Assembly (NCBI RefSeq): GCF_025056915.1
Contig: NZ_JANWVH010000003.1
Span: 1-64,000, forward strand
Direction of reading: 5' to 3'
From: Meiothermus sp.
GTDB taxonomy: Bacteria > Deinococcota > Deinococci > Deinococcales > Thermaceae
DNA: 64,000 bases
This document shows, piece by piece, positions 1 through 58,877 of the stretch (the stretch's first letter is position 1; every line of letters starts with the position of its first letter). A model generated the notes under the pieces. The model searched no databases and was not told where the DNA came from. It was given only the letters and a program-made list of their open reading frames with translations. The translations under genes were made by a program, and so were the position numbers.

Positions 1-84
1 GCCGCCTGGAAACTCGAAAACATGCGTCTCGGCCCAGACGCATTCTTGTTTTCGTGGGCGGCCACGTCTTTGAAGGGCGCGGTA
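1..84 (+). repeat. Dispersed hairpin repeat, copy 1 (cut by window edge)
   Basis: This is the right part of the repeat family that is full length at 25273-25463. It has the GCCGCCTGGAAACTCGAA segment, the TGCGTCT/AGACGCA hairpin arm, the closing GGGCGGCCAC strand and the terminus TTTGAAGGGCGCGGTA. The second internal arm (GTGCCTCAC/GTGAGGCAC) is absent, so this copy has lost one hairpin. The left end lies outside the window. Confidence 0.8.
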
Positions 85-25218: not shown

Positions 25219-25272
25219 GCCAGGCGCTCATCCACCAGGAAACCCTCTTTGCATGAACACCCTGCTGACCAG

Positions 25273-25463
25273 AGCGCTCTTCACATATTTAGAGCCATTC
25301 GACTATAAGAAAGCCTTGTCCTGGACAACAGTGGCCGCCTGGAAACTCGAACACATGCGTCTCGGCCCAGACGCAACGCAGACAAGCGTGCCTCACCGAG
25401 GTGAGGCACGTCTCTTTGTCCCTTCTCGTTTTCGTGGGCGGCCACGTCTGTGAAGGGCGCGAT
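25273..25463 (+). repeat. Dispersed hairpin repeat, copy 2 (full length)
   Basis: This is the reference copy, about 190 bp. The terminal inverted repeat is GCGCTCTTCACA at the left and TGTGAAGGGCGC at the right. Inside, GTGGCCGCC pairs with GGGCGGCCAC and encloses two hairpins: TGCGTCT-CGGCCC-AGACGCA and GTGCCTCAC-CGAG-GTGAGGCAC. A smaller hairpin TTGTCC-T-GGACAA lies to the left. It fills the gap between two convergent genes. The open frames on both strands are by-products of the repeat. Confidence 0.88.
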
Positions 25464-25576
25464 ATGCGAGCGGTGAGGCAGGGAGCGGGGTGGTAGAGGA
25501 CAGGTGCTACCCTCGCCCGACCACCTCCTCTCGCCTTGTGTATCGTTGAAAGTTGCCTGTACACCCGAAGCTGGTT

Positions 25577-40163: not shown

Positions 40164-40276
40164 CAACTTTACCGCGCTCTTCACAGATGTGGCCGTCCTC
40201 CAGGCGGTCACTGTTCGGTTCAGGGCAGGTCTTTCTCGAAGTCGAATGGCTCAAAATGGGCGAAGAGCGCTCTAGC
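40164..40276 (-). repeat. Dispersed hairpin repeat, copy 3 (both internal arms missing)
   Basis: This reduced copy is in the opposite orientation to copy 2. Termini are GCGCTCTTCACAGATG on the left and GGGCGAAGAGCGCTC on the right. GTGGCCGTCCTCCAGGCGGTCAC is a short closing stem without the two internal hairpins. The right end contains the stop codon (TAG on the minus strand, 40272-40274) of the transglutaminase gene, so the repeat end is also the gene end. Confidence 0.8.
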
Positions 40277-41108
40277 CTGTGGCCAGCGGTGTTTGCAGGG
40301 CCTCGACCCTGACCAGTACATTCAGGCTTTCCTTACCTCCCCCGCGTCGCAGCCCTTTGAGGGGTGGGCAGTCGTCGTAGTCGCGCCCGTGAGCTTTTTT
40401 GACGTACTGTTCGGTGACGATGGAGTTGTTGGTGGGGTCGTAACCATACCAGCCCGAGCCGGGCACAAAGGCTTCGACCCAGGCGTGGCTGCCCTCTGAA
40501 CCCACCCCCGTGGCCAGATACCCCGAAACATAGCGGGCCGGAATGCCCACGCTGCGCAGGACGGCCAGCATGGCCTGGGCGTAGTCCTGGCAGACTCCGG
40601 CCCGGCCCTCGACAAACTGGATGAGAGGTGTGTCAACCTGGGTGGCTTTGGTGTCGTACTTGAAAATGCGGCTCAGGTGCTCGGTGACCTCCAGCAGGTA
40701 GCCGTGCAGGTCTTCGCGGGGGTTGGGGCGGCGCAGCGCCAGAAGCTCGAGCCAGTTGTGGTGCAGCGGTACGCGGGGGGTGGGCGCGAGGAATTCAAAA
40801 AAGCGAGACTCGAGGCTGCTCAACACCTGAACCGGCACCGGGTTTGGCTTGGGAACTGCGAAGGTAACCACTTTGGCCTGCATCTCGACCCGCAGCTGCT
40901 TGTGAGGCCTGGTCACTTGAAAATCGTAGACCCGGTTGTGGAAGTAGTCCTGTCGGCTGCGGGGCAGCGAGTCGGGCGAGATGTTCAGGCGAAACTCCAG
41001 AAGCCCCTGGCGGTGGTCGTCTACCGGATAGAGCCACAGCTCGTTGAAGGAGTCCCAGGCATCGTCGGGGTAGAAATACTCGGTCAGGTGGTATACCGAT
41101 AGCAACAC
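40272..41108 (-). CDS. Transglutaminase-like cysteine protease, COG1305
   Basis: This protein is 278 aa from the GTG at 41108 (TAGGCT 7 nt upstream); the track uses a TTG two codons earlier. The catalytic triad is C173 (GVCQDYAQ), H208 (SHAWVEAF) and D224 (YDPTNN). The N-terminal beta domain begins LLSVYHLTEYFYPD as in family members. It completes the ATP-grasp/alpha-E/transglutaminase set but is convergent with it and separated by repeat copy 3. It is predicted to cleave or transfer peptides made by the ATP-grasp partner. Confidence 0.9.
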   Translation of the reverse strand: MLLSVYHLTEYFYPDDAWDSFNELWLYPVDDHRQGLLEFRLNISPDSLPRSRQDYFHNRVYDFQVTRPHKQLRVEMQAKVVTFAVPKPNPVPVQVLSSLESRFFEFLAPTPRVPLHHNWLELLALRRPNPREDLHGYLLEVTEHLSRIFKYDTKATQVDTPLIQFVEGRAGVCQDYAQAMLAVLRSVGIPARYVSGYLATGVGSEGSHAWVEAFVPGSGWYGYDPTNNSIVTEQYVKKAHGRDYDDCPPLKGLRRGGGKESLNVLVRVEALQTPLATG

Positions 41109-41115
41109 AACCAAC

Positions 41116-43345: not shown

Positions 43346-44362
43346 ATGCGCAGGTGGATTGGCCTGTGGGCGCTGGCCTGGGGCCTGGCCGGTTGCACCG
43401 AGCCTTCGCCGGTGGGCTTGGGCGGGTGGGAATCGGTGCAGACCCTTTATCGGGATGCATTTTTGCTAAGGGAGAAAGTCGCGTACCGCAGCGGGGGCCT
43501 GAAGGTTTTCGGGCAGGTGTGCCGCCCCAACCGCCAGGGACAGTTTCCCATCGTGCTCTGGAACCACGGGGGCTTTGAGGGTCTCCAGGTAGAGGATGAG
43601 AATCTTTGTCAGAACCTGGCTCTTTTGGGGTATGTGGTCTTGATGTCTTCCTATCGCGGCGAGGATGGTTCCGAGGGGGCCATTGAGGTCTGCCAGGGCG
43701 AGGTGGACGATGTATTGGAGATGCTGGCCATTGGGCGCACCATGCCCTACGCCAATCCCAGCCGGGTGGCGGTAGCAGGGGGTTCGCACGGGGGCTGCAT
43801 TGCCCTGCGGGCGGTGCAGAAGGGTGCGCCAGCCCAGGTTTTAATTGATATTTTCGGGCCTACCGACTGGGCCACGGAGTACCGCCAACTGGAGCAACTG
43901 GCCGCCTCCAGCGACCCGCTCAAGAAGCAGCTGGCCCAGCAACTCGGCGACATCATTCGCAGCCGCCTTGGCGGCACGCCGGCCCAGGTGCCCGGGCGCT
44001 ACCGGGAGCGCTCCCCCGTGGCTGATGCGGCCAGCCTGCGCAACTGGCCCGGTTCGGTTCTGGTGGTGCACGGGGCTTTGGACTGGGTGGTGCCGCCGGA
44101 ACAGTCCTGTAATCTGGCCCAAGCGGTGGGGGGGTTCACCCACTTCCGAATTACCCGCACCGGTGCCACCTCGAGCACCGCGCCTGCCGGGTGCGCGGGG
44201 GCGGGGCTGAGCTGGAGCGGGGGTGAGGTGCCCAGGGGGCAGTGGGCGGGAAGGCGCTACCTGCTGGTCTACGACGAGTTCGGCCACGGCGACGGCGAGC
44301 AGGCCGGTCTGGCTGTGCTGGATGCGCTCAACTATCTGGGTAGCAAATTCCCGGCCAACTGA
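43346..44362 (+). CDS. Lipoprotein alpha/beta hydrolase (prolyl-oligopeptidase-like)
   Basis: This protein is 338 aa from the ATG at 43346. The lipobox LAGC is at the end of a short signal (MRRWIGLWALAWGLAGC). Nucleophile elbow GGSHGG, an acid in VHGALDWVVPPEQS and His in FGHGDGEQ give the serine hydrolase triad. It resembles S9-type dipeptidyl-peptidase or xylan-esterase-like hydrolases. Location is the outer face of the membrane. The substrate is unknown. A TACAAT box ends 6 nt upstream. Confidence 0.87.
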   Translation: MRRWIGLWALAWGLAGCTEPSPVGLGGWESVQTLYRDAFLLREKVAYRSGGLKVFGQVCRPNRQGQFPIVLWNHGGFEGLQVEDENLCQNLALLGYVVLMSSYRGEDGSEGAIEVCQGEVDDVLEMLAIGRTMPYANPSRVAVAGGSHGGCIALRAVQKGAPAQVLIDIFGPTDWATEYRQLEQLAASSDPLKKQLAQQLGDIIRSRLGGTPAQVPGRYRERSPVADAASLRNWPGSVLVVHGALDWVVPPEQSCNLAQAVGGFTHFRITRTGATSSTAPAGCAGAGLSWSGGEVPRGQWAGRRYLLVYDEFGHGDGEQAGLAVLDALNYLGSKFPAN

Positions 44363-44391
44363 TGGGCAAGGGCGGGCTGAGTGCAGTACGG

Positions 44392-44397
44392 TACAAT
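44392..44397 (+). promoter_or_regulatory. -10 box of the gene at 44404 (leaderless)
   Basis: TACAAT ends 6 nt before the ATG. Confidence 0.55.
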
Positions 44398-44403
44398 TGC
44401 TTC

Positions 44404-44667
44404 ATGCTCGAGGTCAAAGAGGCGGTCAAAATCGCCACCGAATACATCCAGACCCTGTTTAGCGAAAAGCAGATTCCCGAGCTGCGGCTCGAGGAGGTCG
44501 AACTCTCGCCCGACAACCAGTTCTGGGAGGTGACCCTCTCCTTTGTGGTGCGCGAACCCACCGCCTACCTGAGCTTAGGCGATGCGGCCCGCACCCGCGA
44601 GTACAAGATTTTCCGCATCAACGCCGAGACCGGACAGGTGCAGAGCATGAAGATTCGCAAGGTTTAG
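44404..44667 (+). CDS. Small PepSY-like hypothetical protein
   Basis: This protein is 87 aa from the ATG at 44404; the track start adds residues that precede the -10 box. Features: VKEAVKIATEYIQTLF, EEVELSPDNQFWEVTLSFVV, and YKIFRINAETGQVQSMKIRKV, resembling a PepSY-like fold by motif memory only. No signal peptide. Its TAG stop is inside the terminal sequence of repeat copy 4 (TTTAGAGCGCTC). Confidence 0.75.
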   Translation: MLEVKEAVKIATEYIQTLFSEKQIPELRLEEVELSPDNQFWEVTLSFVVREPTAYLSLGDAARTREYKIFRINAETGQVQSMKIRKV

Positions 44668-44770
44668 AGCGCTCTTCGCACATTTAGAGCCTTTCGACTA
44701 TAAGAAAGCTTTGTCCTGGACAAAAGAGTGGCCGTCTGGATGGGCGGCCACGTCCGTGAAGGGCGCGATA
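44666..44770 (+). repeat. Dispersed hairpin repeat, copy 4 (both internal arms missing)
   Basis: This short copy has left terminus AGAGCGCTCTTCGCACA, hairpin TTGTCC-T-GGACAA, closing stem GTGGCCGTC/GGGCGGCCAC and right terminus CGTGAAGGGCGCGATA. The start overlaps the stop codon of the gene at 44404-44667. TA dinucleotides flank both ends (TTTA|GAGCGC... GGCGCGA|TA). Confidence 0.85.
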
Positions 44771-48367: not shown

Positions 48368-48557
48368 TATCGCGACAGACGTGGCCGCCCACGAAAACGA
48401 GAAGGGACAAAGAGACACGCCTCACCGAGGTGAGGCACGCTTGTCTGCGTTGCGTCTGGCCCGAGACGCATGTTTTCGAGTTTCCAGGCGGCCACTGTTC
48501 GGTTCAGAACCAGGCTTTCTCGAACTCGAATGGCTCCTAATATGTGAAGAGCGCTCT
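48368..48557 (-). repeat. Dispersed hairpin repeat, copy 5 (nearly full length)
   Basis: Orientation is opposite to copy 2. The left terminus is eroded (ATCGCGACAGACGTGG) while the right one is intact (ATATGTGAAGAGCGCTCT). Both internal hairpins are kept, and the small stem reads GGTTC-A-GAACC on the plus strand. It ends 5 bp before the stop codon of the convergent PRTase gene. Confidence 0.85.
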
Positions 48558-48562
48558 AAATT

Positions 48563-58449: not shown

Positions 58450-58580
58450 ATCATCCCACATTCTCAGCGCAGGCAGCTCTGCTTCAGCCTGACCCTCAAC
58501 GCTCCGGCGCTTCCTTTAGTTCTGCGCCGTACAGCTTGAAGATGGGCCTACGGGACTCACAAACGCACTCAGCAAAGCTT

Positions 58581-58772
58581 ATCGCGCCCTTCACAGACGT
58601 GGTCGCCCACGAAAACGAGAAGGGACAAAGAGACGTGCCCACCGAGGTAAGGCACGCTTGTCTGCGTTGCGTCTGGGCCGAGACGCATGTGTTCGAGTTT
58701 CCAGGCGGCCACTGTTCTCTTGAGAACCAGGCTTTCTCGAACTCGAGTGGCTCACCATATGTGAAGAGCGCT
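58581..58772 (-). repeat. Dispersed hairpin repeat, copy 6 (full length)
   Basis: Orientation is opposite to copy 2. Termini are ATCGCGCCCTTCACAGACG and CATATGTGAAGAGCGCT. Both hairpin arms are present; one arm has changes (GTGCCCACC...GGTAAGGCAC) that weaken pairing. The small stem reads GTTCTC-TT-GAGAAC, different in sequence from copies 2 and 5 but fully paired. It lies between divergent genes. Confidence 0.88.
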
Positions 58773-58877
58773 TTGGACCACCTCCGGTATGCCAGGGGTG
58801 GTTTTTTGGTCTGGTTACCGCTCAAGGGGGTCTTTTTTCTACCCCGGGAGTGCTACCTTTGAGGCAGGAGGTGCTTT

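Follow-up and report, generated by a model that had tools for sequence, protein, structure and literature searches.

A hairpin-built MITE family of Meiothermus with insertions in stop codons that its left end rebuilds

Introduction

Correia elements insert at TA. Also termed NEMIS, these MITEs of Neisseria occur in forms of about 107 and 155 bp, which differ by an internal piece of 50 bp (PMC2229807). RUP of pneumococcus is a 107-bp MITE that is likewise found at TA and takes part in mutual insertions with other repeats (PMC2229807, PMC10969869). The ERIC or RU-1 sequences of enterobacteria are palindromic, about 127 bp long, sometimes situated at the 3' ends of genes and have effects on mRNA (PMC10969869). 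QMITE2 from Coxiella resides mostly in 3' untranslated regions (PMC10969869), and in one case an in-frame insertion at the 3' end of a gene lengthens the protein (PMC5896051). For Deinococcus radiodurans, about 295 small noncoding repeats (SNRs) have been described that are mosaic and fall into at least nine types (PMC1978522).

Here, we analyze a repeat family in a stretch of 64,000 nucleotides, termed the window in the following, which is part of contig 125 of a Meiothermus draft genome of 3.02 Mb (G000). An earlier note, made from the letters of the window alone, had pointed out six dispersed, non-coding copies and had proposed a MITE or a REP-like element. Statistics are based on 390 kb fetched from G000 plus the window (454 kb in total), on 400 kb from the related genome G013 and on picked loci of other genomes.

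Results

Six copies in the window and their relatives elsewhere

All six copies are indeed present in the window, three on each strand, and they align with each other (Table 1; the limits given include the edge dinucleotides). Their occurrence is far above chance. None of the copies examined contains a gene or aligns as part of a coding gene, in agreement with the non-coding nature proposed before. TA forms the right edge of each of the six copies and the left edge of three out of the five copies that are intact on that side. Copy 2 is located between convergent genes. Strong RNA folds are predicted for either strand (z -5.9 and -4.9). An Rfam scan of the window returned tRNAs only and no curated family matching the element.

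Table 1. Copies of the element in the window, their parts and neighboring genes, and an IS5/IS427-type element located elsewhere in the same genome (last line)
Feature	Position	Strand	Remarks
Copy 1	1..84	+	Right-hand part only, cut by the contig start; right edge TA
Copy 2	25270..25464	+	195 bp long form, core plus modules A and C; edges CA / TA
Copy 2, internal hairpin region	25331..25445	+	Stem GTGGCCGCC...GGCGGCCAC around modules A and C
Module A, within this region			CGAA..GTTTTCG, TGCGTCT..AGACGCA
Module C, within this region			GTGCCTCACC..GGTGAGGCAC
Copy 3	40170..40274	-	105 bp core form; edges TA / TA
Transglutaminase-like gene	40272..41114	-	Stop codon TAG supplied by left end of copy 3
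Gene	44362..44667	+	Stop codon TAG supplied by left end of copy 4
Copy 4	44665..44770	+	106 bp core form; edges TA / TA
Copy 5	48368..48558	-	Long form, small deletion in right end; edges TA / TA
Copy 6	58580..58775	-	196 bp long form; edges CA / TA
IS5/IS427-type element	G000:C169:42788-43519		One 273-aa open frame; ends TA followed by GAGYGTGTCTGA

With copy 2 as the query, its own genome yielded 40 scored matches of 88-100% identity from 276 first-look candidates. Neither of the two outcomes that the earlier note had named as speaking against its reading was observed, i.e. copies elsewhere are not few and do not belong to a coding gene. Complete oriented copies amount to 40 per 454 kb in G000, corresponding to 1.5% of the DNA, and scaling of this number gives a total of about 260 copies genome-wide. 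Left ends with at most one mismatch to a 16-mer occur 168 times in G000, where a reversed control pattern gave none, 134 times in G013, 60 times in G005 and 19 times in G002. Many contigs of G000 end in or near a copy, e.g. at window positions 1-84 and in contigs C20, C16, C24, C27, C105, C131 and C147. It is therefore likely that the repeat interrupts the assembly, and the number of copies may be underestimated.

Matches were present in 12 of 41 genomes, i.e. in G000, in ten further Meiothermus genomes and in a single genome from another genus. Within the genus, copies per genome range from hundreds down to none; M. ruber has few copies, and several Meiothermus species are devoid of the element. 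Among the named genomes searched, a 20-base internal pattern matches repeatedly in M. hypogaeus, M. granaticius and uncultured Meiothermus. The phage, plasmid and viral collections contained no match to the element, and copy 2 matches no plasmid record.

Anatomy of the element

The inverted ends, GAGCGCTCTTCACA and TGTGAAGRGCGCGA, are imperfect at their outermost two bases, where GAGCGC is opposed to TCGCGC or CAGCGC. Including the edges, the left outer end reads TA followed by GAGCGCTCTTCRCA and the right one TGTGAAGRGCGCGA followed by TA, with GCGCTG before TA as a frequent right end in G013. The core of 105-106 bp consists of a left arm and then the stem GTGGCCGCC/GGCGGCCAC. A comparison of short forms from G000, G002 and G008 showed that stem changes are partly compensatory, with 5 pairs out of 22. 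Hairpin modules of about 45 bp each add to this core: Module A leads to a form of 150 bp, A and C to 197 bp, and the further addition of B and D to 254-282 bp. Across all forms the length varies from 37 to 740 bp without any gene inside. Miniature forms exist that are nearly just both ends joined (37 bp at G000:C105:18448-18484 and 41 bp at G013:C3:33289-33329).

In the 454 and 400 kb sampled, modules A to D were matched mostly inside recognized copies; the matches outside, part of which was inspected, may be damaged copies. E and F were matched on their own as well and thus represent separate repeats nested in the element. Composites of 600-614 bp that carry F at the same internal place recur at different sites, which means that composites have moved as units. 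Whole other MITEs are found nested inside copies, bringing the total length up to 740 bp. In G000, the central loop of module C reads CCGAGG in 13 cases and CCTCGG in another 13, and either left-arm subfamily contains both; in G013, the two orientations are present at 7 to 6. Two orientations are likewise seen for the core loop, TGGATG and CATCCA.

Both nested repeats have ends of their own. Repeat F, the second and larger one, is bounded by TGGTCTGGTAAC and GTTACCAGACCA with an apparent CTAAG duplication, and is both nested in and adjoining the element; in G013, it is present at loci L062, L065, L067 and L077, with 15 standalone full-length matches in C1:1-400000. Repeat E, the third, has the ends TACCRGATTC and GAATCYGGTA and an apparent TAA duplication, as judged from a comparison of locus L035 in G002 with L087 in G003, which lacks E. 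It was noted at L072 and L074 in G013 and at 1628-1946 of L035, where it contains three tandem 38-bp units. L035 and L087 have the same insertion site and near-identical flanks, with nested E in L035 only, and the two genomes may share this site by descent.

Target site and duplication of TA

The flanking TA had been described as inconsistent across copies. This does not hold for the larger set, as TA is found at the left edge of 47 and at the right edge of 49 of the 58 oriented copies in G000. The target context features a pyrimidine before TA, a purine after it and a weak G at +2, with little further flank preference. When the flanks of 22 G000 copies were joined with one TA and sought in 13 relatives, seven loci were aligned, and in six of these the relatives, up to four per locus, contain an empty site with a single TA. 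TA is thus a true target duplication. One of the six G000 copies concerned has TC at its right edge. At the seventh aligned locus, C136:54926, which is not a stop codon, relatives have CA or a gap and no TA.

Insertion into stop codons

All six empty-site loci lie in stop codons: At the exact point of insertion, the relatives have TAG (TAA in one row) in six of six cases. Two of the window copies, 3 and 4, are such stop-codon cases. For the gene ending at copy 4, TAG is found at the same point in G013 and G002, which are element-free there; alignment rows that end in TATAA or are unaligned at the junction (M. ruber and others) were not counted. The gene matching the transglutaminase-like gene next to copy 3 ends with TAG in G015 and with TAA in G005, again at the same point and without the element.

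On a broader scale, the left end provides the gene upstream with its stop codon in 15 of 40 G000 copies and the right end does so in none of the 40, as judged with a simple codon-usage gene finder. The expected stop-codon share is 7.8% (p=1.4e-7) under a null in which each intergenic or stop-codon TA is weighted by its neighbors. A second approach, independent of gene calls and restricted to ends beginning with TAG, yielded a high coding score upstream of the left end in the TAG-reading frame (frame 0) in 29 of 102 cases and in frames 1 and 2 together in 1 of 204. The frame-0 cases are distributed over G000 (14/39), G013 (9/39), G005 (4/17) and G002/G003 (2/7). Stop codons are thus entered at their TA and regenerated by the element. 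As the first base of the left end is G, TA and G again form a stop, and insertion into the TAG or TAA stop of a gene is tolerated. With the right end facing the gene, the frame would continue through TAT CGC GCC, and this accounts for the absence of right-end cases. Outside of elements, the sampled G000 contigs use 157 TAG, 70 TAA and 174 TGA stops, and such common use of TAG suits an element in need of TA plus G. Regarding gene-pair context, we counted 12 convergent to 3 divergent pairs versus 46 to 56 (p 0.013), i.e. an excess of convergent and a deficit of divergent pairs.

Search for the transposase

A full-length IS630/Tc1-type element with shared termini, as envisaged in the earlier note, was sought and not found. 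More generally, neither searches for IS630, IS5/IS427 and DDE_Tnp_1 domains nor end searches revealed a full-length partner sharing the ends. G000 has no IS630-type (DDE_3) gene at the threshold used. MITE ends were seen neither in an end search near the IS630-type elements of relatives nor in a comparison of three near-identical copies, and pairs of exact ends 0.9-4 kb apart do not exist in the three contigs of G013 analyzed. G013 harbors an IS630-type element of about 1.1 kb in three nearly identical copies (L044, L047 and L050) with the ends TACCAA... and ...TTGGTA and a reading frame that looks split. IS5/IS427-type (PF13340) elements from Meiothermus have GAG or GAA as their first bases, and some of these elements (several) lie next to TA. 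Local similarity between the ends of the MITE and those of IS5/IS427-type or IS630 elements did not exceed that of shuffles, and only GAG/GAGCG is common with IS5/IS427. The IS5/IS427-type element of G000 listed in Table 1 is thus a mere candidate for the mover. The ends of the MITE together with TA suggest a DDE transposase. The autonomous partner of a MITE family is often not known, and we do not take the outcome of these searches as excluding a MITE.

Discussion

The family is short and lacks a transposase gene, has terminal inverted repeats and a target duplication, and is dispersed in high copy number and in both orientations, as is characteristic of MITEs. Of the two readings originally offered, the MITE one is borne out by the many copies in both orientations, the inverted ends, the duplicated TA at empty sites and the composites moving as units. 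The explanation that best covers all observations, and that we consider very probable, is a Meiothermus MITE family that is moved in trans, inserts at TA, restores stop codons and has a modular hairpin body. Points against it are the imperfect match of the two ends, the one aligned locus with CA or a gap in relatives and the negative outcome of the searches for an autonomous element with these ends. A transposase, most likely of the DDE type and possibly from a TA-targeting family that is IS5/IS427-like or IS630-like, would act in trans and recognize the inverted ends. Insertion takes place at TA, preferably at YTA^R, with the duplication of TA that is evident from the empty sites. Coding interiors do not tolerate the element, while a stop codon, which is demonstrably rebuilt, does so if the left end faces the gene. 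The excess of stop codons and convergent pairs would then reflect the survivorship of harmless insertions, perhaps combined with a true target preference. The body consists of nested hairpins that may have grown by modules and inserted MITEs before the composites spread, and the flips in loop orientation would most simply arise via hairpin or cruciform intermediates during replication.

The excess over the context-weighted null is three- to fivefold and persists when the analysis is restricted to YTAR sites, which would also fit a transposase with an active preference for stop codons or 3' ends, be it via a longer motif or via some coupling to termination or to hairpins in the DNA. However, purging from promoters and 5' regions would raise the fraction as well and there is little flank preference beyond YTAR and the weak G at +2, so that active targeting appears possible, if rather doubtful.

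It is also conceivable that the hairpin works at the 3' ends of genes as a terminator, as a stabilizer of mRNA ends or as an RNase site, and that its position in stop codons is due to selection and not to tolerance alone. The start of 15 of 40 copies in a stop codon, the over-use of convergent pairs, the strong folding with some compensatory stem changes and one terminator-like site in copy 2 are in line with such a function, and ERIC at gene 3' ends alters mRNA decay in Yersinia (PMC10969869). However, the core form is without a terminator-like site, compensatory change is limited to the 5 of 22 pairs, and a copy number ranging from hundreds to none within one genus fits a parasite better. 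We regard this function as unlikely. Promoter-like sites were absent from the two copies scanned. A system that truly chooses stop codons, with an end adapted to rebuild them and a hairpin acting on host mRNA 3' ends, is an equally improbable proposition.

A family of riboswitches or of genes for a structured non-coding RNA, rejected here as the main identity, would account for the strong fold on both strands, but is very improbable given the lack of an Rfam match, the mobility in both orientations with target duplication, the length varying from 37 to 740 bp and the loops occurring both ways. The REP-like alternative, i.e. a REP/REPIN-type element mobilized by a RAYT, shares the palindromic nature, intergenic location and high copy number, but can be dismissed with near certainty because the Y1_Tnp domain of RAYT has no match in G000 and G013, and TA duplication and a core of 106 bp take the place of a short palindrome.

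The MITE family described here exemplifies a simple strategy by which a mobile element can exist in compact bacterial genomes, namely use of the TA in stop codons combined with supply of the missing base. Its stacked hairpin modules and two-way loops appear to record growth and flipping of palindromic DNA in a thermophile. Annotation of gene ends in Meiothermus should take the element into account. With thin coverage of subscription journals, our searches brought up neither a paper on this family nor a description of a MITE that systematically regenerates stop codons, the latter lending weak support to novelty.

In form, the Correia elements and RUP come closest to the Meiothermus element. Correia elements resemble it in having two size forms (here 106 and 150 bp), an intergenic location and a hairpin; judged by description only, they differ from it, as several hairpin modules of about 45 bp are stacked and stop codons are regenerated in Meiothermus, a member of another phylum. 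Unlike the Meiothermus element, RUP has a proposed partner, IS630-Spn1. The SNRs of D. radiodurans, here judged by their description, are closest by phylum. For ERIC, likewise compared by description only, no systematic insertion into stop codons has been reported as far as we found. Finally, QMITE2 lengthens a protein, whereas the end of the Meiothermus element restores the stop.
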